Of a DNA stretch of 40,618 nucleotides, positions 712-40,233 are shown in pieces. Within the stretch, counting starts at the first letter, position 1; every line of letters begins with the position of its first letter. A program made the position numbers and the translations under genes. The stretch is taken from positions 1-40,618 of the forward strand of contig JAILMY010000091.1 of NCBI GenBank assembly GCA_024692165.1, given 5' to 3'. This DNA is from Butyrivibrio sp. (GTDB lineage: Bacteria > Bacillota > Clostridia > Lachnospirales > Lachnospiraceae). The notes below the pieces were generated by a model, which ran no database searches, was not told where the DNA came from, and saw nothing but the letters and a program-made list of their open reading frames with translations.

Positions 712-2349
712 TCATTCTACTGCATAAACATAGAAGAAATCTTTTTCAAATTCACACTTATTAAGATTAAATCCCTTTTGAGCAAACTCATCAAGAATGC
801 TGTCAGTATCACAGACCTTGTTAATATATAGAACAAAAGAACTGTAATCGCCGGATTTTTCATCTAAGAAATCCGCAAGTTTCTCGCTCTTTACATATGT
901 CCAGTAAGGATGATGCAGACTCATGAACATATCAGGAAGTTCCACATTATACTGTGGTTCAACAACTATCGCCTCTGTATCAGAGTAGCTGTCAATAAAG
1001 TGCTGCTTAACCTGATTCATAGGATACAGATAATAAGGTCTCAGTGACATATTACCTATGGCAGTAAGCACAACCAATGCCGTAAGAATCCCTGCAACTG
1101 CCCACTGATTCTTTATAACCATTTTGCCAATATACCAGAACGCCAAAACCACAAGAATGCTAATTTCCGGAATAATAGCCATCTCATATCTGTCAACAGC
1201 CCAGGGTGATGAGATTGCTGTAAATACATAATAAACAGCGGTGGGAATCAGAATCAACACACCCTTTTCTACATTCTCAGATCCTATTGCTGCAACAAAA
1301 GTCTGTCCCTTCATGTTCTTGTACCTGAACAGTATGATCATAGCCATCACAGCTGCAAAGGATATAAACAGCACCAAACTATTTCCCGCAAACAAAGAGT
1401 TCCTTAAAAGGCTGGCGAATCCCTTAAGCTTCCCCGGAAGTGCCGGAGAAAAAATACTTCCCCTGACCTCATAGGCACTTTCATCAAATAGTACCTGAAA
1501 GATTGAAACCGGCCATATTATCAGGTATATAACAGCCGTCACCACCTGACTCTTTATGTAGGTACCGGCTTTCAAGCCATGCGCTTTCATCCTCATTATA
1601 TTGACTGCAAACAAAGGCAGGATGAACAACGCTGCATAGAACTGAGTAAGCATAGCGATGATCTCAACTACGCATATAGCTCTGAGCTGCTTTTTATTTA
1701 ACTCTCCGTTTTCCTTAAAAAGGTCATAGTTCAGATATAAAAGAAGAGCAAACCACATTGTGAGAATTGCATAGTTTCTTATATATGTGACATTATTGGC
1801 AAAATCGAAGCTCAGTCCATAATACAAAAGGGCAATGACAGCACAAAATCCATCTGAATACTTTTTGCAGATAAGATAAACCAAAAAGCATGTCACAAAA
1901 AGACAGATATAGTTAATCAAAAGCCCTACTTGCATAAGAGGCATATTGATGAAAAACGAGCACACCGTATGGAACAAAAGGTAATACAGCGGCGGATGGG
2001 AATCTGCCATATCGGCCAGAAGCGTTCCAAAGTATCGGAATCTTTTCCCTTCCTTAACGTACATATATTTATAAGCCTCGTCATCAGTAAATCTGGTACC
2101 CTGCAACAGAGATGAATTCTCCCAGTCCTTCATGGTTTCCAATAACTGATAATCATGATCTTTGATTGACTGCAGAAATTCTCCTGCCGTTATATCTATC
2201 ATATTCGCGAAGCTGAAGGTACACTTTTCATCAAAGAAAAAGTCCTCCTTCATCCTTCCAACTCTGATGGCATTTGCAAGTATGATTACCAACGCAAGAG
2301 CCAGCACCACTCTGTGTATCAGAGTTCTGTCATTCCCAAGCTGCTTCAT
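712..2349 (-). CDS. GT-C fold membrane glycosyltransferase (GT39/PMT_2-like)
   Basis: A 545-residue polytopic membrane protein. The N-terminal membrane segment (about residues 10-30) is followed by an acidic FFFDEK pair (D40, E41), the usual place of the catalytic Asp in GT-C enzymes. The DSHPPLYYLL motif at 117-126 is typical of the PMT/GT39 and ArnT-like families. About ten further hydrophobic segments follow, and a C-terminal soluble tail of about 100 residues ends the protein. Such enzymes move a sugar from a polyprenyl-phosphate donor to a glycan, lipid or protein on the outer face of the membrane. It is the last gene of the long operon, 29 nt after the AMP-ligase at 2379, which suggests late decoration of the product. 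Substrate is unknown. Confidence 0.75.
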   Translation of the reverse strand: MKQLGNDRTLIHRVVLALALVIILANAIRVGRMKEDFFFDEKCTFSFANMIDITAGEFLQSIKDHDYQLLETMKDWENSSLLQGTRFTDDEAYKYMYVKEGKRFRYFGTLLADMADSHPPLYYLLFHTVCSFFINMPLMQVGLLINYICLFVTCFLVYLICKKYSDGFCAVIALLYYGLSFDFANNVTYIRNYAILTMWFALLLYLNYDLFKENGELNKKQLRAICVVEIIAMLTQFYAALFILPLFAVNIMRMKAHGLKAGTYIKSQVVTAVIYLIIWPVSIFQVLFDESAYEVRGSIFSPALPGKLKGFASLLRNSLFAGNSLVLFISFAAVMAMIILFRYKNMKGQTFVAAIGSENVEKGVLILIPTAVYYVFTAISSPWAVDRYEMAIIPEISILVVLAFWYIGKMVIKNQWAVAGILTALVVLTAIGNMSLRPYYLYPMNQVKQHFIDSYSDTEAIVVEPQYNVELPDMFMSLHHPYWTYVKSEKLADFLDEKSGDYSSFVLYINKVCDTDSILDEFAQKGFNLNKCEFEKDFFYVYAVE

Positions 2350-2378: not shown

Positions 2379-3788
2379 TTATCTCTTAATCTTACCAAGC
2401 TGTGTCTTCTCAAACTCCTGATCGCGGAAGTCTACCTTATAGATCTTCTTATAGATAGGCAGCTCCTTGTTGAGCTCAGTAACGAACTGCTTAATCTCCT
2501 CCTGATCAGCAGCATCACAGTATACACCTGCATGGATTCTGTCATCCTGCTCGTAAACCAGGCACTCTTTTACCTTAGGATTCTCATAGAGCTTCTTCTC
2601 AAGCTCCTCAGGGCTGACATTCTCGCCGCTTGAAAGGATGATAAGATTCTTCTTTCTTCCTGTGATGTAAAGGAATCCGTCATCTGCAAGATAGCCAAGA
2701 TCTCCGGTGTGAAGGAGGCCATCCTCGAGAACCTCTGCTGTTCCCTCAGGATCCTTGTAGTAACCAAGCATAACACCGTAATAACGAACGCAGATCTCCC
2801 CGTCAATAAAGGAAACTTCGCAGCCATCAACAGGACGACCAACTGATTCAAGGTGATTGATAACATCGAAATTACATGTGATGTTTCCGCAGGTCTCTGT
2901 CATTCCGTAGTACTGACCAAAGCCGATACCATTATCAAGGAATGTCTGGATAACACCAACCTCTGGCTTAGCACCGCCTGTAAGAGCAAGCTTAAGACCG
3001 CCAAGACGGGAAATATTGCCCTTCTTGATGCAGGTCTGCCAAAGCTTAAGGATACCGGGAGTAACAAGACCAACATCAATCTGCTCACCCTCAAGATCTG
3101 AAAGAACATTCTTAGAATCTGCGCTGAGGTATGTTGTAGCCTTCTGCTCAATTCTATAGAGCCATCCGTTGATTCCGGCGATGTGATAGAATGGGAAAAT
3201 ATTGTAAATTCTGGAGCCTGATGATGCCTTCTTATCTTCTGAATAGTCGTCATTATGACCTTCTACTGTGAAACCAAGAAGATTACCTACTGAAAGCATA
3301 ACACCCTTTGAAAGGCTCGTTGTTCCTGATGTAAATACAATAAGTGCAAGGTTATTCTTCTCATCATCAGTGAAATCCTTAAGTTCAAGGCTTCCGTTGC
3401 CCTCTTTAAGCATCTCTGCCTTATCAGCGATCTTAAAGTCTCCCACTGCCTTGTCTTTATACTTCTCTTCTACAATGAATCCGTCCAAATCTGAACGATA
3501 GATTGCAGCCTGAATATTCTCAGGGGTCTCAAGGAAGTTTACAGGAATAAGTACGCCTCTGCTGAAAAGAATAGCTCCGAGAAGAATTGTGTACTCATAG
3601 TTACTATCTGCCATGATACCGATATGTTTGCCTGTAAGATCTCCAAAGGTATTCTGCAGATTATATGCACATGCCTTGATCTTATGCAGGTACTGTCTGT
3701 AAGTTACCTCGTAGCTGCTTTCACCATCAAGATTTTTGAATGCAGGAGCGTCGCCATAGCTCTCCATCATTTTTATTAGCTCTACCAT
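2379..3788 (-). CDS. AMP-forming acyl/aminoacyl ligase (ANL superfamily), copy 2
   Basis: A 469-residue adenylate-forming enzyme. It has the phosphate-binding loop FTSGTTSLSKGV (152-163), the YYGMTE motif (293-298), TGD (361-363), the hinge region GRKKNLIILSSGENVSP (377-393) and a C-terminal GKIKR whose Lys466 matches the usual A10 catalytic lysine. Such proteins activate a carboxylic acid with ATP and load it on CoA or a carrier-protein thiol. It is clearly paralogous to the ligase at 4998-6425. Both share the SGTTSLSKGVMLSVGN block and the hinge. With the carrier protein at 7254 in the same operon, loading of that carrier is the simplest role. The acid substrate cannot be read from the sequence. 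A GGAGG site lies 13 nt before the chosen ATG. Confidence 0.9.
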   Translation of the reverse strand: MVELIKMMESYGDAPAFKNLDGESSYEVTYRQYLHKIKACAYNLQNTFGDLTGKHIGIMADSNYEYTILLGAILFSRGVLIPVNFLETPENIQAAIYRSDLDGFIVEEKYKDKAVGDFKIADKAEMLKEGNGSLELKDFTDDEKNNLALIVFTSGTTSLSKGVMLSVGNLLGFTVEGHNDDYSEDKKASSGSRIYNIFPFYHIAGINGWLYRIEQKATTYLSADSKNVLSDLEGEQIDVGLVTPGILKLWQTCIKKGNISRLGGLKLALTGGAKPEVGVIQTFLDNGIGFGQYYGMTETCGNITCNFDVINHLESVGRPVDGCEVSFIDGEICVRYYGVMLGYYKDPEGTAEVLEDGLLHTGDLGYLADDGFLYITGRKKNLIILSSGENVSPEELEKKLYENPKVKECLVYEQDDRIHAGVYCDAADQEEIKQFVTELNKELPIYKKIYKVDFRDQEFEKTQLGKIKR

Positions 3789-3840
3789 TAAAAACTAAAT
3801 TTCCTCCATAACACATTCACACATTACTACGCCAAAAACA

Positions 3841-4965
3841 TTACTTATAATACTCTTTATACCACTCAGCAAACTTTCTAAGTCCATCTCTGAGAGGAGT
3901 GGAAGGCTTGAATCCGAAGTCGTTTGAAAGCGGAGTTACATCAGCATATGTAACCTCAACATCACCGGGCTGCATTGGAACAAGCTCCTTGTGTGCTTCA
4001 AAATCGTAGTCCTCAGGAAGCACTCCTGCTCTTATAAGCTCCTGCTGGAGAATATCTACGAAGTCAAGAAGATTTACAGGATCGTTATTACCGATGTTGT
4101 AAACCATGTACTTAACACCGTTCTCGTTCTCAGCAGGCGCAACCTGCATTACGTTTACAATACCCTCAACGATGTCGTCTACAAATGTGAAGTCACGCTT
4201 GCAGTTACCATAGTTGAAGATCTTGATTCCCTCGCCCTTAACAAGCTTGTTTGTGAAACCAAAGTAAGCCATGTCCGGTCTTCCAGCAGGGCCATAAACC
4301 GTAAAGAATCTAAGACCTGTACTGGGAATACCGTAAATCTTTGAATAAGAGTGAGCAAGAAGTTCATTGCTCTTCTTGGTTGCAGCATAAAGAGATACAG
4401 GATTATCTACCTTATCATCTGTGCTGAACGGAATCTTCTTGTTAGCACCGTAAACACTTGAGCTTGAAGCATAAACAAGGTGCTCAACACCCTGATAGCT
4501 ATCGGACTTAGCATCATATGAATGTCTGCAAGCCTCAAGAATGTTGCAAAAGCCGATAAGGTTTGACTCCACATAAGCATATGGGTTGTCTATTGAGTAA
4601 CGAACCCCGGCCTGAGCAGCAAGGTTAACAACAACTTCAGGCTTAAATTCTGCAAATATCTTGTCGATCAGTTCCTTGTCTGCAAGGTTTCCCTTAACAA
4701 AAGAGAGCTTCTCTTCCCCTGAAAGGGTGTCAGGTAAACCGTACTCCCCGAGTTTCTTACCTGAAAGTTCCAGCATTCCTGCAATCTTCTTAAGTCTGTC
4801 TACCTTGATTCCCACATCATAGTAATCATTCATACTATCGAGGCCAAGAATCTTTATATTTGAATACTCTCTTAAGAGTTCCATGCAGAGATTTGATCCG
4901 ATAAATCCGCCCGCACCTGTTATGAGCACTCTTTTTCCACTAAGATTGATATTCTTTTCCAGCAT
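3841..4965 (-). CDS. NAD-dependent sugar-nucleotide epimerase, UDP-glucuronate 4-epimerase-like
   Basis: An extended short-chain dehydrogenase/reductase. The Rossmann GAGGFIG motif lies at 17-23, the SSSSVYG block follows, and the catalytic pair is Y193xxxK197. MNDYYDV near the N-terminus and GRPDMAYFGFT and CKRDFTFVDDIVEGIV further on are characteristic of the UDP-glucuronate 4-epimerase (CapI/LspL) group, so UDP-galacturonate is the expected product. At 374 residues it is slightly longer than usual, owing to an insert around 65-90. I chose the ATG at 4965 because AAGGAGGG sits 9 nt upstream; a longer frame opens with TTG at 4992. It lies between two paralogous AMP ligases and supplies an acidic sugar for the repeat unit. 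Confidence 0.88.
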   Translation of the reverse strand: MLEKNINLSGKRVLITGAGGFIGSNLCMELLREYSNIKILGLDSMNDYYDVGIKVDRLKKIAGMLELSGKKLGEYGLPDTLSGEEKLSFVKGNLADKELIDKIFAEFKPEVVVNLAAQAGVRYSIDNPYAYVESNLIGFCNILEACRHSYDAKSDSYQGVEHLVYASSSSVYGANKKIPFSTDDKVDNPVSLYAATKKSNELLAHSYSKIYGIPSTGLRFFTVYGPAGRPDMAYFGFTNKLVKGEGIKIFNYGNCKRDFTFVDDIVEGIVNVMQVAPAENENGVKYMVYNIGNNDPVNLLDFVDILQQELIRAGVLPEDYDFEAHKELVPMQPGDVEVTYADVTPLSNDFGFKPSTPLRDGLRKFAEWYKEYYK

Positions 4966-4997
4966 TACTATTTTTCCCTCCTTCATCGCCAAATGAT

Positions 4998-6425
4998 TTA
5001 TTTAAGTATTTCTGTGCTTCTCTTAATCTTTCCTGTTGCTGTCTTTTCAAACTCTTTATCTCTGAACTCTACTCCATAGATTCTCTTGTAAAGAGGAAGC
5101 TTCTTATTGAGCTCTGCTACATGCTCCTTGATTTCTTCCTGAGCAGATTCATCGCAGAACACTGCAACGTTAATTCTGTCATTTTTCTCAAATGCAATAC
5201 ATTCCTTAACGTTTACATTGGCATACATATATTTCTCAAGCTCTTCAGGACTTACATTCTCGCCACTAGAAAGAATGATCAGATTCTTCTTACGGCCTGT
5301 GATGTAGAGGTAGCCCTCTTCATCAAGATAGCCAAGGTCACCGGTAAAGATCATTCCGTCTCTGAGGATTTCTTTTGTCTCTTCCTCATTCTTGTAGTAG
5401 CCCATCATGTTGCCCCAGTAGTTGATACCGATCTCTCCGTCGAAGATCTTGATCTCAGCATCATCATAAGGACGTCCTACAGATGCCATGTGGTGCTCCA
5501 TATCGAAGTTGAATGTAGCATTTCCGCCTGTCTCTGTCATGCCATAGTACTGACCAAAGGCAATACCGTGGGAAGTGATCTCCTTAACATCTTCAACGCT
5601 TACAGGTGCACCGGCAGTGCAAAGAATCTTAACATTACCCAGCTTATCTATGTGACCTCTTCTGATTGCCTTGAGCCAAAGCTTTAGGGTTCCCGGAAGA
5701 ACACATGCGTAATCAATCTCTTCGCCCACAAGGTCATCAAGGATATTCTCCGGATGTACACTCTGATAGAAAGTGCATGCATGCTCTGACCATGTAATAA
5801 GAGCCAGGAGTCCTCCAATGTGATAGAACGGGAAGTTTGTATAAATAGGCATTCCCGGATATGGCTCAAAGCCATTTGAATATCCCTTAGGAAGAGCTAT
5901 CTTCTCGCCTCCGAAAATATTACCGACAGAGAGCATAACTCCCTTTGAAAGACTGGTTGTTCCTGAAGTATATACGATCATCATAAGGTTGCCGGCCTCT
6001 TCATCAGAAAAGTCCTTGAGATCCTTTGCCTGAACCTCTCCCTTAAGTGCAATATCAAATCCGTAGGTTTTTACGTCTGATAAGAAGCTGAATTTCTCAA
6101 GATCATCTGCTATAAGATACTCAGCATCTGAATTTTTAACTGCGAATTTGAGATTATCCTCAAGTTCACGGAAATTAAGCGGAATAAAAACCGCTCTGCT
6201 AAACATAAGCGCAATGGCAATAACAACATACTCATAGCTGCCACCGCCGATAAGTGCAATGTGCTTGCCCTCCAAAGGACCCATGAGATTCTCTAATCTT
6301 GTAGCACACTCTTTGATATCTCTAATGTACTTTTCAAAAGTGATATTATATGAATTCTCGCCATCCAGAAATCTGAATGCATTAACATTCTTCTCCTGTT
6401 CCAGTGTTTCTAAATACTTAAACAT
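4998..6425 (-). CDS. AMP-forming acyl/aminoacyl ligase (ANL superfamily), copy 1
   Basis: A 475-residue adenylate-forming enzyme with the loop YTSGTTSLSKGV (152-163), a YYGMTE motif, TGDLGYLDEEGYLYITGRKK across the hinge, and a C-terminal KTATGKIKR holding the A10-type lysine. It is a full-length paralog of the ligase at 2379-3788. The two differ most in the middle third, where the substrate pocket lies, so they may activate different acids. An AAGGAG site precedes the ATG. It follows the WbqC-family gene by 54 nt and is 32 nt from the epimerase start. Its length is close to D-alanine:carrier ligases (DltA), but nothing specific assigns D-alanine. Confidence 0.9.
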   Translation of the reverse strand: MFKYLETLEQEKNVNAFRFLDGENSYNITFEKYIRDIKECATRLENLMGPLEGKHIALIGGGSYEYVVIAIALMFSRAVFIPLNFRELEDNLKFAVKNSDAEYLIADDLEKFSFLSDVKTYGFDIALKGEVQAKDLKDFSDEEAGNLMMIVYTSGTTSLSKGVMLSVGNIFGGEKIALPKGYSNGFEPYPGMPIYTNFPFYHIGGLLALITWSEHACTFYQSVHPENILDDLVGEEIDYACVLPGTLKLWLKAIRRGHIDKLGNVKILCTAGAPVSVEDVKEITSHGIAFGQYYGMTETGGNATFNFDMEHHMASVGRPYDDAEIKIFDGEIGINYWGNMMGYYKNEEETKEILRDGMIFTGDLGYLDEEGYLYITGRKKNLIILSSGENVSPEELEKYMYANVNVKECIAFEKNDRINVAVFCDESAQEEIKEHVAELNKKLPLYKRIYGVEFRDKEFEKTATGKIKRSTEILK

Positions 6426-6479
6426 GTAACTTATATCTCCTTACTAATCATATTCATCGCATTTTTTACTATATTCATG

Positions 6480-7232
6480 TTATTCCGCAGGTACATCTTC
6501 CGGATACTCATAGCCATCAATTAAAGTATAGGCTCCAAGTAACTCTTTTATCTGTTCCGGAGAGCAGTACATCATAACATCGATAATTGACAGATTGGGC
6601 ACGAAATCATCCCTGTTCTGCTTGTATTCAATATCCTCATTGGTATGGATAAACTTTAATACAACTCCGTTTTCTCTGAAGAAATTCTGGAAATAGAGCT
6701 TTGTGCCGCCAATTGCATTGATATACTCATCAGCATTTCTTTTCCGACAGTAAGCCAGTACAAGATTTTCTCTTCTGTACTCACCATCAAGAGGAACATC
6801 TATTGATGTTCTGTAAATCGGAGTTTCAATTCCAAGCTTCTTAGCTGTAAGACGATTGGCATTATCAAGGAAAGCCGCAAGATTACGGCCTTCCTCCTTA
6901 AGTCCGAACTCAAGAACCTCTTTTACATGCTCATAGACATCCTCAAAGTTAGGTGCCTTGGCATAGGAGCTCTTAAGTGTTGCCAAAAGCTTCTCTACTG
7001 TTGCCTCGTCAATTCCTGTCTCATGCTCACAGATAAGCTTGTTCTGCGAAGCCTTTCTTACCGGGAAGCCAAAGTTAAAAGGCTCTCCGTTAACAAGAAT
7101 TTTGTTTCTGTTGATGTAGCCATTCTTCATGTAATTGACATCATCAACAATCAAATATTCATCTACCGCGTACATAAGCTGCCAATACCCAATATATGGG
7201 AAAAAATATGGCTGCATAATTCCTATTACCAT
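6480..7232 (-). CDS. WbqC family protein
   Basis: A 250-residue soluble protein with the family's N-terminal signature: IMQPYFFPYIGYWQLMYAVD (5-24), then the VDDVNYMKNGYINRN block. It has no signal peptide or membrane segment. WbqC-like genes occur in O-antigen and capsule clusters. Their biochemical role is not firmly established, though transfer of an activated acyl or aminoacyl group to an amino sugar has been proposed. Here it sits directly between a carrier protein (21 nt away) and an AMP ligase (54 nt away), with an aminotransferase in the same operon, which favours that idea. GAGG lies 8 nt before the ATG. Confidence 0.85.
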   Translation of the reverse strand: MVIGIMQPYFFPYIGYWQLMYAVDEYLIVDDVNYMKNGYINRNKILVNGEPFNFGFPVRKASQNKLICEHETGIDEATVEKLLATLKSSYAKAPNFEDVYEHVKEVLEFGLKEEGRNLAAFLDNANRLTAKKLGIETPIYRTSIDVPLDGEYRRENLVLAYCRKRNADEYINAIGGTKLYFQNFFRENGVVLKFIHTNEDIEYKQNRDDFVPNLSIIDVMMYCSPEQIKELLGAYTLIDGYEYPEDVPAE

Positions 7233-7253
7233 GCTAAACCTCGCAAAATTCTA

Positions 7254-7484
7254 TCAAAGTGAATCAACGTATTTTACAAGATCACTAATGTTCTCGATAG
7301 AAAGCAGCTCTTTTTCACTCATCTTAATAGAAAAAGCCTTCTCAATCTTGGAAATGATTGACATAATCTCCAGTGATGAAAGATCAAGATCATCAATAAG
7401 GTTGCTCTCCTCCTGGATATCCTCCTCAGGAATATCTGCTACATCTTCGATAATTGCTACAATTTTCTTAAATGTCTCGCTCAT
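7254..7484 (-). CDS. Acyl carrier protein (phosphopantetheine-binding)
   Basis: A 76-residue acidic four-helix carrier protein. The attachment motif reads LDLSSLEIM (33-41); Ser37 aligns with the phosphopantetheinylated serine of the usual DSL motif, and the preceding Asp is replaced by Ser36. That variant is found in carrier proteins of specialised pathways, whereas housekeeping fatty-acid AcpP normally keeps DSL. A strong GGAGGTG site precedes the ATG. It lies 20 nt after the acyltransferase-3 gene and 21 nt before the WbqC gene, so it most likely carries an acyl or aminoacyl group for polysaccharide modification. It needs a phosphopantetheinyl transferase, which is not in the window. Confidence 0.92.
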   Translation of the reverse strand: MSETFKKIVAIIEDVADIPEEDIQEESNLIDDLDLSSLEIMSIISKIEKAFSIKMSEKELLSIENISDLVKYVDSL

Positions 7485-7504
7485 TTTTCACCTCCATAAA
7501 ATAA

Positions 7505-8635
7505 TCAGTTGTTAGTTTCTTTTTTCTTGGCAATAAAGTCTTTAACCTGGACAAATCCAAAGGTTCCTACCATAACTATTGCAAATCTGGCTGCGAATAC
7601 CAGCCAACATGCCACCCGGCGGTTACCCTGCCAATTATTGATTAAGTCATACTGAACATATACGCCCATTGACATCATCTCTATTGCATGAATGCACAAA
7701 ACATACAATGACAGTCTTCCGATCTTACGAATAAACTCACTGATCTTGCCCTTGAATCTGTTCAGATAAAGAAACAGATAAACAGAAACACAAGAGAACA
7801 ATCCACCGACTACAATTGAAACAGGGCCCCAGGAATAAGCATTTAGTGCCATATTAAACTCACCGGCAAAGGCCTTCATAATAAAACTTGAAACAACAAT
7901 AGTCAAAACCACAATTGCTCTAAGGGCAGGATTTTTGCCTGAAGTAAAGATCTTATACTTCTTGGCCATATATCCCAGACAAAGGAAAAGAACTGCGACA
8001 AGGCCCTGTGAAATAGCCCAGGGAATTGGGCTGCCAAGGCTAAGTAACCAGCCAATAAGGGAAACTGCTGAAGCAGCAATAAGAAGTTTGATTCCCTCAA
8101 AACGATTAAGCAGCTCGTTAAATATAACATTTCCTATAAATAATGCAAGTAAAAACCAGACAGGGCCGCAAACACCGAGGTGTATACCAAAGTAGTTTGT
8201 TTCTGTCGAAAATCCAAAAAGAAAACTTAAAAAGAGTTTAAGAGTCTGAACTGTAGTCTCACGTCCTCCTGGCCTGAAGAGCAGGAAATAAATAACAAAA
8301 TGCATCACACACGTAACACACATTGTGATCAAATAAGGGATGATAAGCGTCTTAAACTGCTTATCAACGGTCTTTTTGAAGGTAGTCTTTCTGAATCCGT
8401 AACCGCTGATCACAAAAAGCACCGGCATGGAAGCTTCACCAAAGGCCATAAACAAAAGGATCAAAAACAATACAACCGGATTCTGAGCAGTTGCAGAATC
8501 CTCAGTATTAATATATGTGTACAACACATCAAACAATCCATAGGTATGAGCCATGATCATAAGGATCATCATCACACCCTTTAGCAGATCAAACATACCC
8601 AAAGTATTTTTGATCGCATACTTACTTCTCTCCAT
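7505..8635 (-). CDS. Acyltransferase family 3 (OafA/Oac-like) membrane protein
   Basis: A 376-residue protein with about ten membrane segments. The N-terminus carries the family's basic-X10-His pattern, with Lys19 and His30 in FDLLKGVMMILMIMAH; lysine replaces the more common arginine. The FVISGYGFRK block around residue 80 also fits. These proteins move acetyl or other acyl groups across or at the membrane onto surface sugars. The gene sits immediately before the carrier protein, so carrier-bound acyl groups are a possible donor; acetyl-CoA is the usual donor in the family. The protein ends in a lysine-rich cytoplasmic tail. Confidence 0.85.
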   Translation of the reverse strand: MERSKYAIKNTLGMFDLLKGVMMILMIMAHTYGLFDVLYTYINTEDSATAQNPVVLFLILLFMAFGEASMPVLFVISGYGFRKTTFKKTVDKQFKTLIIPYLITMCVTCVMHFVIYFLLFRPGGRETTVQTLKLFLSFLFGFSTETNYFGIHLGVCGPVWFLLALFIGNVIFNELLNRFEGIKLLIAASAVSLIGWLLSLGSPIPWAISQGLVAVLFLCLGYMAKKYKIFTSGKNPALRAIVVLTIVVSSFIMKAFAGEFNMALNAYSWGPVSIVVGGLFSCVSVYLFLYLNRFKGKISEFIRKIGRLSLYVLCIHAIEMMSMGVYVQYDLINNWQGNRRVACWLVFAARFAIVMVGTFGFVQVKDFIAKKKETNN

Positions 8636-8677
8636 CTTTTTTATATTCCTTCCCTACTATAAGCAATTAAATCATTA

Positions 8678-9628
8678 CTATCTTTTTATAAAGCGTCTGA
8701 CTTTATGAAGTCCAAAGCGCAGTTTGTCATTGCTGTCATCCGTCAGAGTCCTTTTTATCAGCTTTATATCTTCGCTCCTAAAACTCTCTTTATTATCCAT
8801 GAGCTTGTCCCATTCATATTTCCTGCGGACATCAAAATCAAGTGTAAAGCCCAGATTTCCGGCCAACTTCTCCATATCTTTTAACCCACGAATATAATTC
8901 ATGAGATTATCGATACTGTAGGAATCGTTCTTGGAAGACCAGGAACCGGACTCCGGAGCCAACATATATCTATAGGCAGTGTAAACATCTTCAGCCACAT
9001 AAATCTTTCCAGCTGCCAGCATAAGAATAACCAGAATGATATCTGACATCTTATTCTGGTCAAAACCGATTTCTTTGCTCTTTGCGATCATTCTGTCATA
9101 TTCAGATTTTCTGAAAAAAGATGTTCCGGTCTGACCGGGAAGCATGTAATCTTCCAGATCTTTTACTGTATAATCGCCGAATCTTTTAAGATAAGGACTG
9201 TATTTCTCTCTGTCCTCATTTCTCTCATCCTTCTCGTTTACGATGATAATATGGCCATAGCATGCCACATATTCAGGGTGAGCATCCATGAAATCAACCT
9301 GCTTCTGAAGCTTGTTCTCATCGATCCAGTAATCATCGCCCTCCAAAAAGGCCAGGTACTCGCCCTTTGCGTGGGCACAGACATCATTTTCGTTGGCCGC
9401 CATTCCCATGTTCTTTTCTCGAATGAGAGGAACGATTATGTCTGGATACTTATTGGCATATTCTTTTACAATTGCAGCTGTATTATCGGGGGAACAATCA
9501 TCTCCTACAATGACCTCATAGGCAAAGTCTGTCTTCTGGGAGACAATACTCTCAAGAGTATGTCCGATAAACTGCTCCTGCTTATAAGTTATAACCGCAA
9601 TGCTAACTTTAATTTTCTTATCAGTCAC
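8678..9628 (-). CDS. Family 2 glycosyltransferase
   Basis: A 316-residue GT-A enzyme. It begins SVAVITYKQEQF, has the VGDDCSPDNT nucleotide-binding segment, and carries an EGDD metal-binding motif near residue 96 in place of DxD. EGDDYW is typical of the subgroup that also contains many O-antigen GT2 enzymes. No membrane segment is visible, so it should act at the inner membrane face on a lipid-linked acceptor. The start is GTG, overlapping the TGA stop of the aminotransferase (9625-9627), which implies translational coupling. Donor and linkage cannot be predicted. Confidence 0.9.
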   Translation of the reverse strand: MTDKKIKVSIAVITYKQEQFIGHTLESIVSQKTDFAYEVIVGDDCSPDNTAAIVKEYANKYPDIIVPLIREKNMGMAANENDVCAHAKGEYLAFLEGDDYWIDENKLQKQVDFMDAHPEYVACYGHIIIVNEKDERNEDREKYSPYLKRFGDYTVKDLEDYMLPGQTGTSFFRKSEYDRMIAKSKEIGFDQNKMSDIILVILMLAAGKIYVAEDVYTAYRYMLAPESGSWSSKNDSYSIDNLMNYIRGLKDMEKLAGNLGFTLDFDVRRKYEWDKLMDNKESFRSEDIKLIKRTLTDDSNDKLRFGLHKVRRFIKR

Positions 9629-10752
9629 TTTAGTTTCCCTTTTTTACCGGCTGTTTTAAGCAGCTCACAAATTCTCTCAACTATGTCAGTGGCAAGATCC
9701 GGATAAAGCGGAAGTGTAAGCACCATCGTAGAAAGACGTTTAGCTATGCTCACATCTCCCCTGAATCCGCTATCCTGATAACACTCGAACTCACTTGTGA
9801 TCGGGTAAAAATACTTTCTGGCGTGAATTCCATTCTTTAACAGGTAATCATATACTTCATCACGGCTCATTCCGAATTCATCCTTGTCGATGAAAATAGG
9901 GAAATAGCTGTAATTGAATTTTATGTGCTCATTGTTATAATCAAGAAGTCTTATGCCTTTAACTCCGGCAAGGAGCTTCATGTAGAGATCAACAACCGCT
10001 TTCCTCTGCACTGTTATCTCATCAAAGTGCTTCAGGTTACAAAGGCCCATGGCAGCCTGAAACTCATTCATCTTGGCATTAGCTCCTACATATGCCACGC
10101 TTTCCTCGTTCATGATACCGAAGTTATGGAGCTGATATATTCTGAGCATCAGGTCCTGATCATTTACAACACTGCATCCACCCTCGATACTGGTGAAGCA
10201 CTTTGTAGCATGGAAACTGAACATTGAAGCATCACCGAAGTGAACAATGCTCTCTCCGTCTATTGTCTCCCCAAAAGCGTGGGCAGCATCATATATTACC
10301 TTAAGATTATGCTTTTTGGCAATAGCATCTATGGCCTTAACATCACAGGGCATTCCGTAAACATGCACCGGAACAATGGCTGAAGTCTTATCAGTAATAA
10401 GAGCTTCTATCTTGTCGGGGTCCATGGTACAATCACTTTCCCTTACATCGCAAAATACAGGAGTAAGACCGTTTCTTACTATCGCATGTGTGGTAGAAGC
10501 AAAGGTATAGGGAGTGGTGATAACCTCACCGGTCAGCTTAAAGGCCTGAATAGTCATTTCCAGCGCCATATGACCATTTGTCATTGGAAGACAATTGTCC
10601 ACATCCAAAAGTTCACAGAGCTGATCGGTAAACTCCATAAGAAACGGACCATGGTTGGTCAGGTGCCTGGTCTCCCAGATTTTATCAAGATATTCCATGT
10701 ACTCTTCCTTTGGAGGAAGGTAAGGTTTTGTTACAAAAATTTCTTCTTTCAT
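9625..10752 (-). CDS. PLP-dependent sugar aminotransferase (DegT/DnrJ/EryC1/StrS), VioA-like
   Basis: A 375-residue fold-type I aminotransferase. The PLP-binding lysine is Lys184 in SFHATKCF, followed by IEGG; the YDAAHAF segment provides Asp155. The N-terminus FVTKPYLPP, the LTNHGP motif and VITTPYTFASTTHA closely resemble VioA/dTDP-4-amino-4,6-dideoxyglucose synthases as I know them. So the expected product is dTDP-Qui4N or a similar 4-amino sugar from a dTDP-4-keto-6-deoxy precursor. The rmlA/rmlB genes that would make the precursor are not in the window. Its free amine is an attractive acceptor for the carrier-protein/WbqC/ligase genes downstream. AGGAG lies 9 nt before the ATG. Confidence 0.85.
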   Translation of the reverse strand: MKEEIFVTKPYLPPKEEYMEYLDKIWETRHLTNHGPFLMEFTDQLCELLDVDNCLPMTNGHMALEMTIQAFKLTGEVITTPYTFASTTHAIVRNGLTPVFCDVRESDCTMDPDKIEALITDKTSAIVPVHVYGMPCDVKAIDAIAKKHNLKVIYDAAHAFGETIDGESIVHFGDASMFSFHATKCFTSIEGGCSVVNDQDLMLRIYQLHNFGIMNEESVAYVGANAKMNEFQAAMGLCNLKHFDEITVQRKAVVDLYMKLLAGVKGIRLLDYNNEHIKFNYSYFPIFIDKDEFGMSRDEVYDYLLKNGIHARKYFYPITSEFECYQDSGFRGDVSIAKRLSTMVLTLPLYPDLATDIVERICELLKTAGKKGKLK

Positions 10753-10775: not shown

Positions 10776-12542
10776 TCAGAACTCATTCATCAGCTTCTGA
10801 ATCTCAGCTTCACCGATAACAGTCACGCTTCCATCGCTGATTCTGTACACTCTGTCGCAGGCAGAAAGTACGCTTGGACGGTGAGTAGTAAGTATACAGG
10901 TACGTCTTGCATCCTTCTTCATAATATTTGAAAGAACCAGTCTCTCAGTAGCAACGTCAAGAGCTGAGGTTGCTTCATCCATAAGAAGAATTGGTGTCTT
11001 TCTGAGAATTGCTCTGGCAATGGCAAGTCTCTGGTTCTGTCCCTCAGAGAATCCGATTCCGCTCTCACCAATCTTGTGGTGAATTCCATCAGGCAGCTTC
11101 TTTACAAAATCGTACGCACAGGCCTGCTTAAGTGCATCTATGATTTCTTCCTCAGTTGCATCGGGAGCTATCATTCTGAGGTTCTCCTCGATTGTTCCGG
11201 AGATCATGGTGTTACCCTGTGGCACATAGGCAATAAGTGGTCTTGTCTGGGTTGAGAAATCAAGTTTCTCGTTCATGTCGCCTTCAGCACAGGTAAATGC
11301 TTCACCCTGCTGGATATTCAGAATACCAAGAAGAATTCTGAGCATTGTAGTCTTACCTTCACCTGAAGGTCCAACCAGGGCGATGATCTCTCCGGGGTGT
11401 GCCTCAAGAGATACGTTGTTAAAGATCTGGCGACTGGTCTTATATGCAAAGGACATATCTTTAACATGTACAGCAATACCTGTCTCTTTGCCTTTTTCTA
11501 CCAGCTTCTCATACTCGTCGCTCTCAATTTCTTCTTCATCCTTGATGTCAAGAAGTTCTCGAACACGCTCTGTAGCAACGGTGATCTGAAGTGATATAGG
11601 AATAAGTCCAAGTAAAGCCTTTCCGGATTCAGCAATACGCAGTGCCATAGCAAACACAACTGACAAATCGCCAAATGTCATAAATCCCTTATTTACTCTG
11701 TAAAATGCCCAGGCAATACATATCACACCTGAAAAAATTCCTCCCAGATATGTAACGCCCCAGGACAGCAGTGAGAAGAAGTTGGACTTCATATCAGCGT
11801 CATAACGCTCTTTTTCCAGAACTTCAATTCTCTTATAGAACTCATCAGCAAGGCCAAAGGCCTTAACAGCCTGAATATTGTGGAAAGACTCTTTGTGATA
11901 GGAGTTCTCTTTACTCTCAACGACCTTGATATTGGCCTGGCACTCATAGATCTTGTTCATGAAGATCTTTCCACTGAAAAGGATGATCGGTGCAACTATA
12001 ACTACCACCACGATCATGCTGGCATCGTTTACAACAATAACAACGACTGCTGCAATCATTGTAAGCGTGCAGGAAATAAGTGTCGTCATAAAGCCGTTGG
12101 CATTACCGGAAATAGTTCTTGCATCAGTTGACATTCTGGTGATAAGGTCTCCTGAATGATACCTTGTAAGTTCCTCCCAGTCCGCATGCATTATCTTATT
12201 GTATAGGCCTTTTACAAGATATGACTGCATAGAATTACAGTTCCAGGCAGAAAATCTGTTTGATAATATACTTATAATCGCATTAAGAACTATCAGTCCG
12301 ACAAAAACAAGAGCCATCACTACCGTCTTGCTGATATCTTTTTCAAGGGCATAGTCTACCAGTGAACCCACCCTGTATGAAATTGTAAAATTCACTGCCA
12401 TATGGATCAGTTCCACGAGCACATATAAAAGGATTCTGCCAATATATCTGTGGAAATAGCCATATATCCATTTCAAATTTCGATAAAGGTTTCCTATTAC
12501 ACCGCCTTTAATCTCTTTTACTATTTTTTCCGCCTTAACCAT
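10776..12542 (-). CDS. ABC exporter half-transporter (fused membrane and ATPase domains)
   Basis: A 588-residue type IV ABC exporter. Six membrane helices lie in residues 35-320. The nucleotide-binding domain has Walker A GPSGEGKTT (391-399), signature FSEGQ (498-502) in place of LSGGQ, Walker B ILLMDEATSALD (518-529) and the switch His554. It should work as a homodimer. In surface-glycan loci such proteins may flip lipid-linked oligosaccharides (PglK type), export glycolipids (MsbA type) or export a peptide. No peptidase domain is present, which speaks against a classical bacteriocin exporter. It overlaps in function with the Wzx at the right edge. GGAG lies about 7 nt before the ATG. Confidence 0.92.
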   Translation of the reverse strand: MVKAEKIVKEIKGGVIGNLYRNLKWIYGYFHRYIGRILLYVLVELIHMAVNFTISYRVGSLVDYALEKDISKTVVMALVFVGLIVLNAIISILSNRFSAWNCNSMQSYLVKGLYNKIMHADWEELTRYHSGDLITRMSTDARTISGNANGFMTTLISCTLTMIAAVVVIVVNDASMIVVVVIVAPIILFSGKIFMNKIYECQANIKVVESKENSYHKESFHNIQAVKAFGLADEFYKRIEVLEKERYDADMKSNFFSLLSWGVTYLGGIFSGVICIAWAFYRVNKGFMTFGDLSVVFAMALRIAESGKALLGLIPISLQITVATERVRELLDIKDEEEIESDEYEKLVEKGKETGIAVHVKDMSFAYKTSRQIFNNVSLEAHPGEIIALVGPSGEGKTTMLRILLGILNIQQGEAFTCAEGDMNEKLDFSTQTRPLIAYVPQGNTMISGTIEENLRMIAPDATEEEIIDALKQACAYDFVKKLPDGIHHKIGESGIGFSEGQNQRLAIARAILRKTPILLMDEATSALDVATERLVLSNIMKKDARRTCILTTHRPSVLSACDRVYRISDGSVTVIGEAEIQKLMNEF

Positions 12543-21671: not shown

Positions 21672-24140
21672 CTAATTAGCTACAAGCGTTGCTACAGCAG
21701 CATCATTGTATGTAATTTTTTTGACATTAGTGGTAACATACATACTTTTATTGCCTACATTTGTAGTATTCCCGGAAACAAGCAGCTGATCTTTTGCGCC
21801 AGTAACACTGGAACACGAAAGCGCAGTGCTCTTTGAACCACTTCCATTAACCGTTATATCATTTTCCGAGTATGTAATTTTTCTTGTGGAATTGGCACTC
21901 TCTAGTTTAACTACAACATTTTTTGTCCCTGCATCAGAATTAATTCTATTATTCGAAATTGTGATAGTCTGATTAGCAGCGGCAACAAAGCTCTTCTGAT
22001 CGTAAATATTTATCGCATTACCTTTCAGGCCTTTGATATTAAACTCATTATTCAAAACAGATATACTGTTTCTGGAATTAGCAACAGATAAATAAGAAAT
22101 ATAATCCGACTCCGGAGTAATAATATTATCAGTTATCGTTACTGTGTTTATAGGCTTAATAACCTTGACCAAAACTCCACTGCTGTAATTATCTATTGTG
22201 TGACCATTTGTCGTATACGGTTCTCCTGCTCCTCCGTACACCTTATTGCCAATAATCTCCATAGGCCAGCTACCTGTCTGCCCAGCTCTCTGAGTAGTAT
22301 AGATAGCAGCTTTACAATGCTTTATTGAAATAGTGTTATTAAATATTTCAGCCGTTCCATAGGCGCGTATTCCGCAGCCGTAATCACCTAAAATATTATT
22401 ATTTTTGATAAGAGTTTTTGAATATCCATCCTGCCCTTTATTGCAAATATAACCTTCACCGGATCCGCCGTTCTTTATATAGTTTCCTTTTACAGTCAGA
22501 CATCTGACCTTTGTGTATACTGCCTCTCTGTCATTACCGTACCCAATCAGGTTTTTAATCGTATTCCTTGAAATTACAGCTATATCCGCACGAATTGCTA
22601 TAAAGTTGGCATTTATGCAGTGCCTTACGCTTTCATCAAATTCATCTGCAGTATATAGATTTTCAAAAGTATTACCTGATATATCAATATTCTTGGCCTG
22701 TGTAAAATTGACATTGGCAACATCCCCAACCCAAATCGCTGCAATTTGTCCGCTTGATGTGGTCCTGCTTCCAATGTTTATAAAAGTATTATTCGTATAA
22801 CTTGATTTTACCGTATTAACACCATGATAGATTGCACAACCTCCAATATTGGTAAATGTACATCCGGTTACTGTGTCACTTTGAAAATAACCTTCATCCT
22901 TTGTTATTGCCCAGGATACATAGTCTGTATCAGTAAAAACACAGTTTGTATACTCTATATTTTGAGCACCTTTAGGCGATGTACAAAACATTGTCCTTGC
23001 ATTAAGCGCCTCATAAGTATTCCATATAGCTCTTAAACATGCGCCTTTACATGTAAGTTCTCTCAATGTCAAACCATAATGCGCTCTGAAATTCAGATTA
23101 AGCAAAGTACTTTTGTCAGAACCCTCTCCAACTATAGCAACCCCATGTGGAATTCCTATTTCCTTACAGTTTAGATTATAGGTTCCCTCAGGGATAACTA
23201 CAGTATTTGCTCCGGAAGCAAGTGCCTTTGTCAGATATGCCGAATCATCATTTTTACCATTTCCAACTGCTCCAACCTGCCTAATGTTTATTGAATCGGA
23301 AAACACGAGATTCGCATATAATCCATTTGCAAGCTTTACATTAATAGTTCCTGCGGTATCCGAAGCCTGGTAGTCAGCTATTCCGCCATCATTAGCAGCA
23401 TAGTATCCTTTTACTCGGATAAGATAGCCACTTTGAATATTCTTGGCTGCTGCCATGTCCGCCACTGTGGAATACACCTTGTTATATGTAACTTTATTTC
23501 CGTTGGCATCATAATCCTCAAACTCTTCATCCAAAGAAATGTCGTTTTCTTTGGTCAAAGACAGACCTGCTTTTAAGCTCCCAAGTATAAGAGATTCGTC
23601 AATGGATTCAAAATCTATTTCACTGTCAAATGTATCATCAATATCTGATGTCACTGTATCTTCATCGATGTTTTCGTCAGATTCTTCTGTAGTTTCCTCA
23701 TCTGTAATCTCATCCGAATCGTTCGCTTTTTCCTCTTTTTCAGTATTTTCGTCTGATTTCTCAGTAATCTCCTCATCGATATTCTCGTCTGATTTCTCAG
23801 TCAGTTCCTCATCGATATTCTCGTCTGATTTTTCCGTGCTCTCCTCATCAACTTCTTCACCGGATTCTTCCGTTACGATCTCCTCACCAGTGTTTTCATC
23901 AGCTTCCTCTGTTTGTGCCTTTTCCTCGGTGTCTTTGGTTAGTTCCCCGTTATTGTACGTGATATCTGCATCAGTTAAGTACTCTTCAGTAATAACTTCA
24001 AAGCACTTTTCTTCAATATCACCTTCACTAGTTCTTACAGGCCTTAGGCCAAAGCATGTCAAAAGACAAAGCACAGATAAAGCAACACACGCAACCAGCA
24101 ATACTCCTTTTTTCACCTGTCGTCTCCTCCTTTTCTTCAT
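21672..24140 (-). CDS. Membrane-anchored right-handed beta-helix protein (pectate-lyase-3/tailspike-like), 822 aa
   Basis: It has a basic start and one membrane helix (about 12-31), then a Glu/Ser/Asp-rich linker (about 40-210) with 12-residue repeats of the form EKSDENIDEE. A tailspike-like entry module follows: TVADMAAAKNIQSGYLIRVK, GYYAANDGG and SINIRQVGAVGNGKNDD (282-299). The right-handed parallel beta-helix runs from about 300 to 822. Residues shared exactly or nearly with its two paralogs are NANFIAIR (510-517), GYGNDREAVYTKV (533-545), GEGYICNK (561-568) and GCGIR (588-592). The fold includes lyases, hydrolases, epimerases and binding proteins, so the activity is not predictable. It is monocistronic: terminators lie on both sides and a -10 at 24205. 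An AGGTG site precedes the ATG. Confidence 0.85.
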   Translation of the reverse strand: MKKRRRRQVKKGVLLVACVALSVLCLLTCFGLRPVRTSEGDIEEKCFEVITEEYLTDADITYNNGELTKDTEEKAQTEEADENTGEEIVTEESGEEVDEESTEKSDENIDEELTEKSDENIDEEITEKSDENTEKEEKANDSDEITDEETTEESDENIDEDTVTSDIDDTFDSEIDFESIDESLILGSLKAGLSLTKENDISLDEEFEDYDANGNKVTYNKVYSTVADMAAAKNIQSGYLIRVKGYYAANDGGIADYQASDTAGTINVKLANGLYANLVFSDSINIRQVGAVGNGKNDDSAYLTKALASGANTVVIPEGTYNLNCKEIGIPHGVAIVGEGSDKSTLLNLNFRAHYGLTLRELTCKGACLRAIWNTYEALNARTMFCTSPKGAQNIEYTNCVFTDTDYVSWAITKDEGYFQSDTVTGCTFTNIGGCAIYHGVNTVKSSYTNNTFINIGSRTTSSGQIAAIWVGDVANVNFTQAKNIDISGNTFENLYTADEFDESVRHCINANFIAIRADIAVISRNTIKNLIGYGNDREAVYTKVRCLTVKGNYIKNGGSGEGYICNKGQDGYSKTLIKNNNILGDYGCGIRAYGTAEIFNNTISIKHCKAAIYTTQRAGQTGSWPMEIIGNKVYGGAGEPYTTNGHTIDNYSSGVLVKVIKPINTVTITDNIITPESDYISYLSVANSRNSISVLNNEFNIKGLKGNAINIYDQKSFVAAANQTITISNNRINSDAGTKNVVVKLESANSTRKITYSENDITVNGSGSKSTALSCSSVTGAKDQLLVSGNTTNVGNKSMYVTTNVKKITYNDAAVATLVAN
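23660..23831 (-). repeat. 36-bp in-frame repeats coding the acidic linker
   Basis: A 25-base segment starting CCTCATCGATATTCTCGTCT on the plus strand occurs identically at 23771-23795 and 23807-23831, 36 bp apart. Degenerate copies lie at about 23732-23759 and 23660-23683. They encode the EKSDENIDEE-type units of the 822-aa protein. Confidence 0.8.
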
Positions 24141-24395: not shown

Positions 24396-25394
24396 TTATT
24401 TGTTTTTCTTTTTTCCGATCAGAATTGGACATACTTTACCGAACACAACCGATACAATTGTACAAATGATGCACGCCAAAACCGTAATAACAATACTTAT
24501 CAGTAGTGAAAAGTCGTTGGTCCCCAATCCAATGCGGCGGAACACTTTTGCCAACTGAGCAACAATTATCCCATTCAACAAGTATACCACAAGTGTATTC
24601 TGTCCCATAACTGAAATTAGTCCGGTCAGTTTATTAGACTTTAATCGTGAAGAAACATAAATACAACATGTAATACCTGTAAATATCATTACCAGGCAAA
24701 TAACAGGATTATAATACGATGTACTATGGAAATCCATAGTCTGGCCGGGATAAAAAATCAGGCTGACAGTTACAAGAACTCCATAGACAATCAGAGACAA
24801 CACAAAGGTCAAAAGCTTATTGTATCCATCCATAATCTGATCTTTGTGGATAAAAAAGCATTTACCTGACATTGCAAAAAGGACGCCTGTCAACGCAGTA
24901 TCCATGGTCCAAATATTTAGTACTTCCACATCTCTAAGCATAATTCCCAGAAAGAAACACACAAGGCTGGCAATAAGCGTAAGTACTTCATTTTTTCTAA
25001 GCGCGTGGAACAGAACATAACATAGTATATTTGTGATTATAAAGCTGGTAATGAACCAGTGGCTCTGCCCCAACAGAAAGTCCTTTGTATAAGAGAATGC
25101 CTTCTCCCAATTACCACTTATCACATAGCTGATTGCATAAAAAGGAAATAGTGAGAAAACAACCCATGGAATAATCAATCTATAAATCAGTCCCTGAATA
25201 AATGTTTTAAAATCTTTATTAAGGCCGATAAAAAATCCCGAAAGGAAATAAAACAAAGGCATTTTTATAGGATTGATAAACTGATAAAATGTATCATTTT
25301 CATATACATGACCAAGAATGACCAGGAACATGGCCAGTGCTCTCAGCAGATCTATCCATTCTTCTCTTTTTTTTATACTATTTGTGTTACTCAT
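24396..25394 (-). CDS. Acyltransferase family 3 membrane protein
   Basis: A 332-residue polytopic membrane protein. The N-terminus carries the Arg-X10-His motif of the family (Arg18, His29 in IDLLRALAMFLVILGH), followed by PLFYFLSGFFIG. About ten helices are predicted by eye, and the C-terminus ends with a KKKNK tail. It should transfer an acyl group, usually acetyl, onto an extracellular sugar. The start is the ATG at 25394; a TTG-initiated frame at 25406 adds four residues and has no better ribosome binding site. It is 41-54 nt downstream of the MBOAT gene and shares its transcription unit. Confidence 0.87.
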   Translation of the reverse strand: MSNTNSIKKREEWIDLLRALAMFLVILGHVYENDTFYQFINPIKMPLFYFLSGFFIGLNKDFKTFIQGLIYRLIIPWVVFSLFPFYAISYVISGNWEKAFSYTKDFLLGQSHWFITSFIITNILCYVLFHALRKNEVLTLIASLVCFFLGIMLRDVEVLNIWTMDTALTGVLFAMSGKCFFIHKDQIMDGYNKLLTFVLSLIVYGVLVTVSLIFYPGQTMDFHSTSYYNPVICLVMIFTGITCCIYVSSRLKSNKLTGLISVMGQNTLVVYLLNGIIVAQLAKVFRRIGLGTNDFSLLISIVITVLACIICTIVSVVFGKVCPILIGKKKNK

Positions 25395-25447
25395 TTTTAG
25401 ATCCAATTTTCTCTGGTGCCATCACCCTTTATTCTGGTTCAAGGCCA

Positions 25448-33917: not shown

Positions 33918-33956
33918 AATTTTCCCTTTCATAACTTTTTTTGCAATTTTATTTCA

Positions 33957-40196: not shown

Positions 40197-40233
40197 AGCT
40201 CCGGTTCCTCCTTCCATTTGATGCAAACCAAAA

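Follow-up and report, generated by a model that had tools for sequence, protein, structure and literature searches.

Eight consecutive genes in a 40,618-nt contig of Butyrivibrio sp. (the whole of this stretch being referred to here as the window; contig C89 of a 3.14 Mb genome in 246 contigs, 87% complete) are read here, with moderate confidence, as two neighbouring units in an exopolysaccharide locus. The first, termed unit B, is a Dlt-like system of two AMP-forming ligases, a stand-alone acyl carrier protein (ACP), and a membrane acyltransferase of the AT3 family in the place of the MBOAT protein, and the second, unit A, is a separate group of a VioA-like aminotransferase, a WbqC family protein, and a GT2 glycosyltransferase. 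Unit B probably acylates an exported polysaccharide, with WbqC and the amino sugar probably not its partners. A first-pass annotation, made from the sequence alone, had joined these genes in a single module in which the ligases load an amino, hydroxy, or fatty acid onto the carrier, for transfer by WbqC and/or the AT3 to a VioA-made amino sugar; the ligase, carrier, and membrane transferase module is supported, and the role given to WbqC, the amino sugar acceptor, and the aminoacyl route are not.

In the proposed mechanism, each ligase would adenylate a carboxylic acid other than an alpha-amino acid and load it onto the phosphopantetheine of a dedicated carrier, with the AT3 then taking the acyl group off the carrier at the cytoplasmic face of the membrane and moving it through its own core. 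The acceptor outside would be a sugar hydroxyl (an amine is less likely), located on the polysaccharide or on a lipid-linked precursor. Both the loading of the carrier and the outward transfer to a sugar are drawn by analogy with Dlt. Unit A would make and use an amino sugar formed by its DegT aminotransferase, probably dTDP-linked, which WbqC may modify without the carrier. For the AT3 clade of Lachnospiraceae and Faecalibacterium as a whole, we put at about even the chance that the acyl group comes from a dedicated carrier, charged by one or two private ligases, and not from coenzyme A (CoA).

Co-occurrence of AT3, carrier, and ligase genes

A ligase scan of species genomes gave the best 80 of 582 relatives. 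In a tree of 46 ligases, those of Lachnospiraceae and Faecalibacterium form a close clade apart from the more distant ligases included, represented after deduplication by 25 loci, window included (L055 and L064 were removed as copies of L037 and L039); these come from fewer than 25 genomes, as several loci share one, and some lie on short contigs (L060, 4.9 kb; L057, 7.5 kb; L074, 10 kb). AT3, carrier, and ligase occur together at 17 of the 25 loci and AT3 and ligase at 18, with two ligases present at 10 (the window, L038, L039, L058, L067–L070, L072, and L073). In this search of other genomes, which the first-pass annotation had proposed, the AT3, carrier, and ligase genes recur, and VioA is seen at 2/25 loci and WbqC at 1/25; among the loci compared, WbqC lies inside unit B in the window only, and was not found at the other 24 loci of the ligase clade. 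The Faecalibacterium loci L069, L072, and L073 have two tandem ligases and a carrier, with a divergent AT3 upstream. AT3 and carrier are also present at 6 of 59 distant loci (L081, L085, L086, L096, L104, and L126), and a ligase search of 200 family genomes, with the threshold set at E 1e-60, was positive in 4, including that of the window.

The association was also approached from the AT3 side, with an AT3 profile (alignment A2) run on 299 family genomes blind to the ligases, at a threshold of E 1e-40 or better. This gave 13 matches in 11 genomes, 12 of which have a ligase and/or carrier within 1.5 kb; as six of the 13 were already in A2, having been picked for linkage, only the other seven make a fair test, and six of these are linked. 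Within 1.5 kb of the AT3, L254 has a carrier only, L255 and L258 have both genes, and L256, L257, and L259 have a ligase, with longer stretches revealing a carrier at L256 and L259, and nothing new at L254, L257, and L260. None of 35 other AT3 loci used as a control (seven from the genome of the window and 28 from 20 family genomes; five loci shorter than 3 kb) has a ligase or carrier (6 of 7 against 0 of 35, Fisher p = 1.3e-6). The control covers 35 of the 76 AT3 matches listed in the 21 genomes because loci were obtained mainly for the best match per genome, and three linked-clade AT3s among the 76 (those of C89 and C48 in the genome of the window, and G009:C74, which is L254) were kept outside it. 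The clade looks narrow, since the same profile run on 398 Bacillota genomes matched the genome of the window alone; its Faecalibacterium members stem from the species-genome ligase scan. With 17 of 25 loci on the ligase side, and 6 of 7 against 0 of 35 on the AT3 side, the D-alanylation logic of ligase, carrier, and membrane transferase invoked by the first-pass annotation is supported.

Pairwise distances across 17 loci are correlated for AT3 and carrier (r = 0.86), AT3 and ligase (0.70), and carrier and ligase (0.69), with 0 of 5000 permutations in each case, and within the 11 Lachnospiraceae loci the values are 0.80 (0/5000), 0.64 (1/5000), and 0.71 (0/5000) respectively. The linkage of AT3 to carrier speaks for a donor other than acyl-CoA, with the carrier as the putative donor. 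A rather unlikely alternative is that the ligases are acyl-CoA synthetases and the AT3 uses acyl-CoA, with the carrier serving something else. AT3s tested so far use acyl-CoA, according to the accessible part of a review (PMC9558356), the family and structure matches of the ligases are largely CoA ligases, and some of the ligases are solitary; however, the carrier accompanies AT3 and ligase at 17 of 25 close loci and shows a distance correlation of 0.86 with the AT3, and at L263 an AT3 and carrier are paired without a local ligase.

Residues of the AT3 leave the choice of donor to the linkage. The window AT3 matches Acyl_transf_3 at 91.6 bits (cut-off 31), and the K19-x10-H30 pair of its first transmembrane helix (TMH1), invariant in 14/14 AT3s of A2, fits the R/K-x10-H feature of the AT3 family. 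Beyond A2, some linked AT3s have Arg or Tyr at the first position. Lys in place of Arg was considered as a signature of carrier use and rejected, with the unlinked L160 and L167 also having Lys. The RxxR motif at the cytoplasmic end of TMH3 lies off its expected place in linked AT3s and varies in the unlinked AT3s of the window's genome, and this comparison was dropped as evidence owing to an unsure alignment register. Neither the TMH1 nor the TMH3 positions settle which donor is used, and it is linkage that supports the carrier.

The distant loci bear on a further proposal, that the product of unit B is a small secreted lipid or lipopeptide, on the lines of the carrier, ligase, and condensation-domain loci of gut Clostridia, and that its place in a polysaccharide cluster is due to chance, which we regard as very improbable. 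A protein of a condensation-domain cluster lies within 6 kb at 41 of the 59 distant loci, many with a carrier, but at 0 of 26 close loci (the simple gene calling used overlooked genes at some GC-rich Faecalibacterium loci), where the AT3 occupies that place, and the condensation-domain loci form a more distant group. The polysaccharide context of unit B is also repeated, with L056 matching glycosyltransferase and exporter, L059 and L063 matching glycosyltransferase and showing an ABC-2 permease by eye, L263 containing ABC_tran, and Wzy_C adjoining the AT3 of L269. An alpha/beta hydrolase-type cluster occurs at 20 of the 59 distant loci (L076–L134; one member scanned per cluster).

Carrier and ligase chemistry

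The carrier has the motif DLSSLE, the second Ser of which (residue 37) is invariant in 14/14 aligned carriers and is the predicted phosphopantetheine site, with the PP-binding domain above its Pfam cut-off and one phosphopantetheinyl transferase family match in the genome. A viral scan using the carrier returned no relatives. The two ligases share 50% identity and fall in separate subclades of the tree. Orthologues of ligase 1 are present in Pseudobutyrivibrio sp. YE44 (91%) and Butyrivibrio sp. AC2005 (73%), with an 80% orthologue of ligase 2 at L060, and among the matches listed the closest ligases are those of Pseudobutyrivibrio and Butyrivibrio.

Both ligases have a C-terminal GKIKR motif, with its Lys (K466 of ligase 1) invariant in 9/9 aligned sequences. 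All 46 ligases of the tree were aligned with 11 adenylation domains of nonribosomal peptide synthetases (NRPS) from the same scan. The Asp of the NRPS FDxS core motif (D235 in PheA numbering), which binds the alpha-amine, is present in 11/11 NRPS domains and in 0/46 ligases, where the column holds Ile (as in ligase 1), Val, Leu, Met, or Ala in 45 and Gln in one, preceded by His in all 46. Absence of this Asp makes acyl, and not alpha-aminoacyl, loading of the carrier likely: the substrate is likely an acyl, aryl, or hydroxy acid, and an alpha-amino acid is unlikely. Amino-acid loading was rejected on this count, and with it the aminoacyl, NRPS-like route of the first-pass annotation. The AMP-binding domain, the catalytic-type C-terminal Lys, and the missing Asp all fit ANL acyl ligases, and the best solved relatives are MenE and feruloyl-CoA and fatty-acyl ligases, with an acyl-ACP synthetase lower.

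A true D-alanylation or aminoacylation system of the Dlt or NRPS type is, in our view, extremely improbable. Such a system would account for the presence of a ligase, a carrier, and a membrane transferase, and the window does encode an MBOAT protein (25448–26851). However, the amino-acid Asp is missing from every ligase aligned, and the MBOAT protein is unmatched by tblastn in 19 close loci and by a phmmer search covering 86 loci, on which basis it was rejected as a partner of unit B. AT3 and MBOAT are, furthermore, described as distinct folds in the accessible text of PMC12423673.

Several observations weigh against a carrier-fed AT3 and acyl-loading ligases as set out here. No AT3 was found at 7 of the 25 ligase loci (L037, L060, L062, L066, L067, L068, and L070), the genomes or metagenome-assembled genomes of four of which (L037, L060, L066, and L068) carry AT3, carrier, and ligase elsewhere (L036, L057, L073, and L075). 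L038 lacks a carrier across 19.9 kb, L263 has no ligase in 15 kb, and the AT3 of L260/L269 has neither gene, longer stretch included. Shared descent could contribute to the distance correlations, and the TMH1 Lys is not diagnostic of carrier use. Additionally, NRPS chains of gramicidin synthetase (linear gramicidin synthase) appear lower among the solved relatives of the ligases, ligase 2 matches the amino-acid adenylation model at 92.6 bits, far below its cut-off of 317.4, and the WbqC gene of the window lies between the carrier and ligase 1. The review, in its accessible part, favours acyl-CoA over ACP as the AT3 donor (PMC9558356).

WbqC and the VioA-like aminotransferase

The aminotransferase of unit A is assigned here as a DegT protein, DesI/VioA-like only: among NCBIfam models DesI scores highest, with 332 bits against a cut-off of 650, and the nearest solved chain, 2po3, is titled '4-dehydrase'. 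Supply of a 4-keto sugar is plausible, with contig C117 containing one dTDP-glucose 4,6-dehydratase match above cut-off, although reported with one in-frame TAG. WbqC matches its Pfam model at 207 bits (cut-off 21.3) and is found in 19 of 200 family genomes, that of the window counted. Of 19 matches outside this genome, 15 were compared at length (13 at 19.9 kb, and two of 12–13 kb at contig ends), with those of G080, G128, G011, and G042 left out. A strong VioA homologue (>600 bits) lies within ~4 kb of WbqC at 8 of these 15 loci, which are the eight best WbqC relatives, and an AT3 or carrier of the unit B type at none; a weak ligase match at L046 (69 bits, ~9.5 kb from WbqC, at the locus edge) is the sole such case among the 15. 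The best 80 viral contigs with WbqC (stretches up to 10.7 kb; 61 at 90% identity) likewise contain a ligase, carrier, or AT3 in 0/80 cases and a DegT match in 15/80. Judged by these neighbourhoods, WbqC goes with VioA-type aminotransferases, independently of the carrier. It was rejected as a carrier-dependent transferase, and the movement of a carrier-bound group by WbqC, as put forward in the first-pass annotation, is supported by neither set of loci.

WbqC is present on at least 80 viral contigs (L170–L249), with identity of up to 44%. L170 encodes a 211-aa protein containing the N-terminal portion of a DegT domain, followed by WbqC and, one gene further on, a GNAT-methyltransferase fusion. 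No solved relative of WbqC was found by sequence, the best matches, to kinesin light chain repeats, being regarded as chance hits, and no described WbqC function was found in the literature searched, with most subscription journals outside its coverage.

Two relatives were set beside the window. In Butyrivibrio sp. AC2005 (L056), which is syntenic with it, glycosyltransferases, VioA (62%), the ABC exporter (47%), and GT2 (47%) match the window along with unit B (AT3 46%, carrier 60%, ligase 1 73%), and VioA lies ~2 kb from the AT3, carrier, and ligase; here a GNAT protein adjoins VioA, and WbqC was not found in 21 kb. In Pseudobutyrivibrio sp. YE44 (G153), L035 retains the ABC exporter (69%), VioA (65%), WbqC (70%), and GT2 (53%) and has no AT3, carrier, or ligase; an AT3, carrier, and ligase (L036) lie on that contig at a distance of ~30 kb, and the 91% orthologue of ligase 1 stands alone on another contig (L037). 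Downstream of VioA, WbqC, and GT2, L035 encodes two adjacent ATP-grasp proteins (6139–8599) with a sub-threshold L-amino-acid-ligase domain, and one ATP-grasp protein adjoins WbqC at L041. Going by this neighbourhood, such relatives may use an ATP-grasp route to acylate the amino sugar.

The single module of the first-pass annotation, in which the carrier is charged by the ligases and WbqC (or the AT3) passes the group on to the VioA amino sugar to give an N-acyl sugar, is an unlikely reading. The eight genes are contiguous in the window, and VioA is again close to unit B in L056. However, WbqC occurs without a unit B AT3 or carrier at all 15 relatives' loci, with the L046 match its nearest approach to a ligase, and no unit B gene accompanies it in the 80 viral loci; in the ligase clade WbqC is seen at a single locus and VioA at two, the latter count also telling against the VioA amino sugar as acceptor. 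L056 has GNAT beside VioA where WbqC was not found, and L035, the closest VioA-WbqC relative, has two ATP-grasp proteins nearby instead. N-acylation is also the less likely outcome given that AT3 targets are listed as O-acylations in the accessible part of the review (PMC9558356).

The locus, known systems, and implications

All eight genes of the first-pass annotation are real and correctly placed within the window, on the minus strand, with Pfam in agreement on the family of each (Table 1); the names 'VioA' and 'UDP-GlcA 4-epimerase' were more specific than the evidence allows. Packing is operon-like, with a 4-base overlap of VioA and GT2 and remaining gaps of 5–54 bases.

Table 1. Features of the two units and adjoining genes in the window
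Feature	Coordinates	Strand	Basis or remark
VioA/DesI-type sugar aminotransferase, unit A	9625..10752	-	Pfam DegT_DnrJ_EryC1 1.2e-94
GT2 glycosyltransferase, placed in unit A	8678..9628	-	Pfam Glycos_transf_2 6.2e-30; next to VioA and WbqC in L035, close to VioA in L056
AT3 membrane acyltransferase, carrier-linked clade, unit B	7505..8635	-	Pfam Acyl_transf_3 (PF01757) 6.3e-26
Stand-alone acyl carrier protein, 76 aa, unit B	7254..7484	-	Pfam PP-binding 1.6e-13
WbqC family protein, unit A	6480..7232	-	Pfam WbqC (PF08889) 3.8e-61
AMP-forming acyl ligase 1, unit B	4998..6425	-	Pfam AMP-binding 7.7e-37
SDR epimerase/dehydratase	3841..4992	-	Pfam Epimerase 5.9e-52
AMP-forming acyl ligase 2, unit B	2379..3788	-	Pfam AMP-binding 1.3e-45
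Ninth protein, multi-span membrane by eye, glycosyltransferase-39-like	712..2349	-	29 bases downstream of the eight
ABC exporter	10776..12542	-	Pfam ABC_membrane/ABC_tran; near VioA in L035 and L056

The supposed UDP-GlcA 4-epimerase is labelled here an SDR epimerase/dehydratase, its nearest solved chain, 5u4q, bearing the title dTDP-glucose 4,6-dehydratase; it probably acts on a nucleotide sugar. It has no tblastn match in L056–L063 or L065 and a weak match (22%) in L066, and in the other loci compared it lacks the company of unit B. The ninth protein has no match in Pfam or NCBIfam, and the ABC exporter has a probable role in the export of polysaccharide intermediates. Glycosyltransferases, the ABC exporter, Wzz, an AAA_31 ATPase, and the MBOAT protein give the remainder of the window the look of a polysaccharide cluster. 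A second AT3 (24396–25406), the MBOAT protein, and its neighbour (26853–27878, without a Pfam match) lie in the same cluster and probably form a separate acylation system. Three similar secreted proteins with parallel-helix-like repeats by eye are encoded at 21672–24140 (no Pfam match), 28096–30552, and 38676–40226, and a CotH kinase domain lies inside a large secreted protein at 30780–33932.

The Dlt system consists of the ligase DltA, the carrier DltC, the MBOAT protein DltB, and DltD. Unit B resembles it in its AMP-forming ligase, small stand-alone carrier, and multi-span membrane acyltransferase, and in an extracytoplasmic polymer as the likely target, and differs in using an AT3 where Dlt has an MBOAT protein, in ligases that lack the amino-acid Asp, and in the presence of two ligases at 10 of the 25 loci. 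None of the nine proteins matched DltD in the Pfam scan, with no search aimed at DltD itself. Acyl-carrier-dependent acylation of sugars is known elsewhere from NodA/NodF, LpxA/LpxD, and the viosamine islands of Pseudomonas flagellin, in which a sugar likewise receives an acyl group from a carrier; these systems rely on fatty-acid synthesis and on transferases that are soluble or peripheral, in contrast to the membrane AT3 and stand-alone ligases of unit B. The VioA-VioB type of 4-amino-sugar N-acylation pairs a DegT aminotransferase with a small modifying protein next to it, as with the GNAT protein of L056, whereas the window has WbqC where the acetyltransferase would be.

The AT3/TmAT O-acyltransferases (OafB, OacB, OatA, and TmaT) share with the AT3 of unit B the Acyl_transf_3 domain and the K/R-x10-H pair in TMH1, and differ from it in that the unit B gene has a dedicated carrier and ligase beside it. 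In the accessible text of three AT3 papers (PMC9558356, PMC9833829, PMC12423673), the members discussed use acyl-CoA and such a module is not mentioned, with the AT3 pore modelled to bind acetyl-CoA and basic residues such as R14 and R74 placed at its 3'-phosphate (PMC9833829). No description of an AT3, carrier, and ligase module was found in the literature searched, within the same limits of journal coverage as for WbqC; the parts are known, and their combination seems undescribed.

AT3s are a major family acylating bacterial surface sugars, with the donor taken to be acyl-CoA and ACP set aside, as presented in the accessible part of the review (PMC9558356). WbqC, for its part, is detached from the carrier and tied to VioA-type aminotransferases. 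Should the proposed role of unit B be correct, the donor rule of the AT3 family would widen, and the unit would represent a second, independently built Dlt-like decoration of an exported polymer with its acids picked by the ligases, providing a route by which gut and rumen bacteria could put chosen acids onto their polysaccharides.

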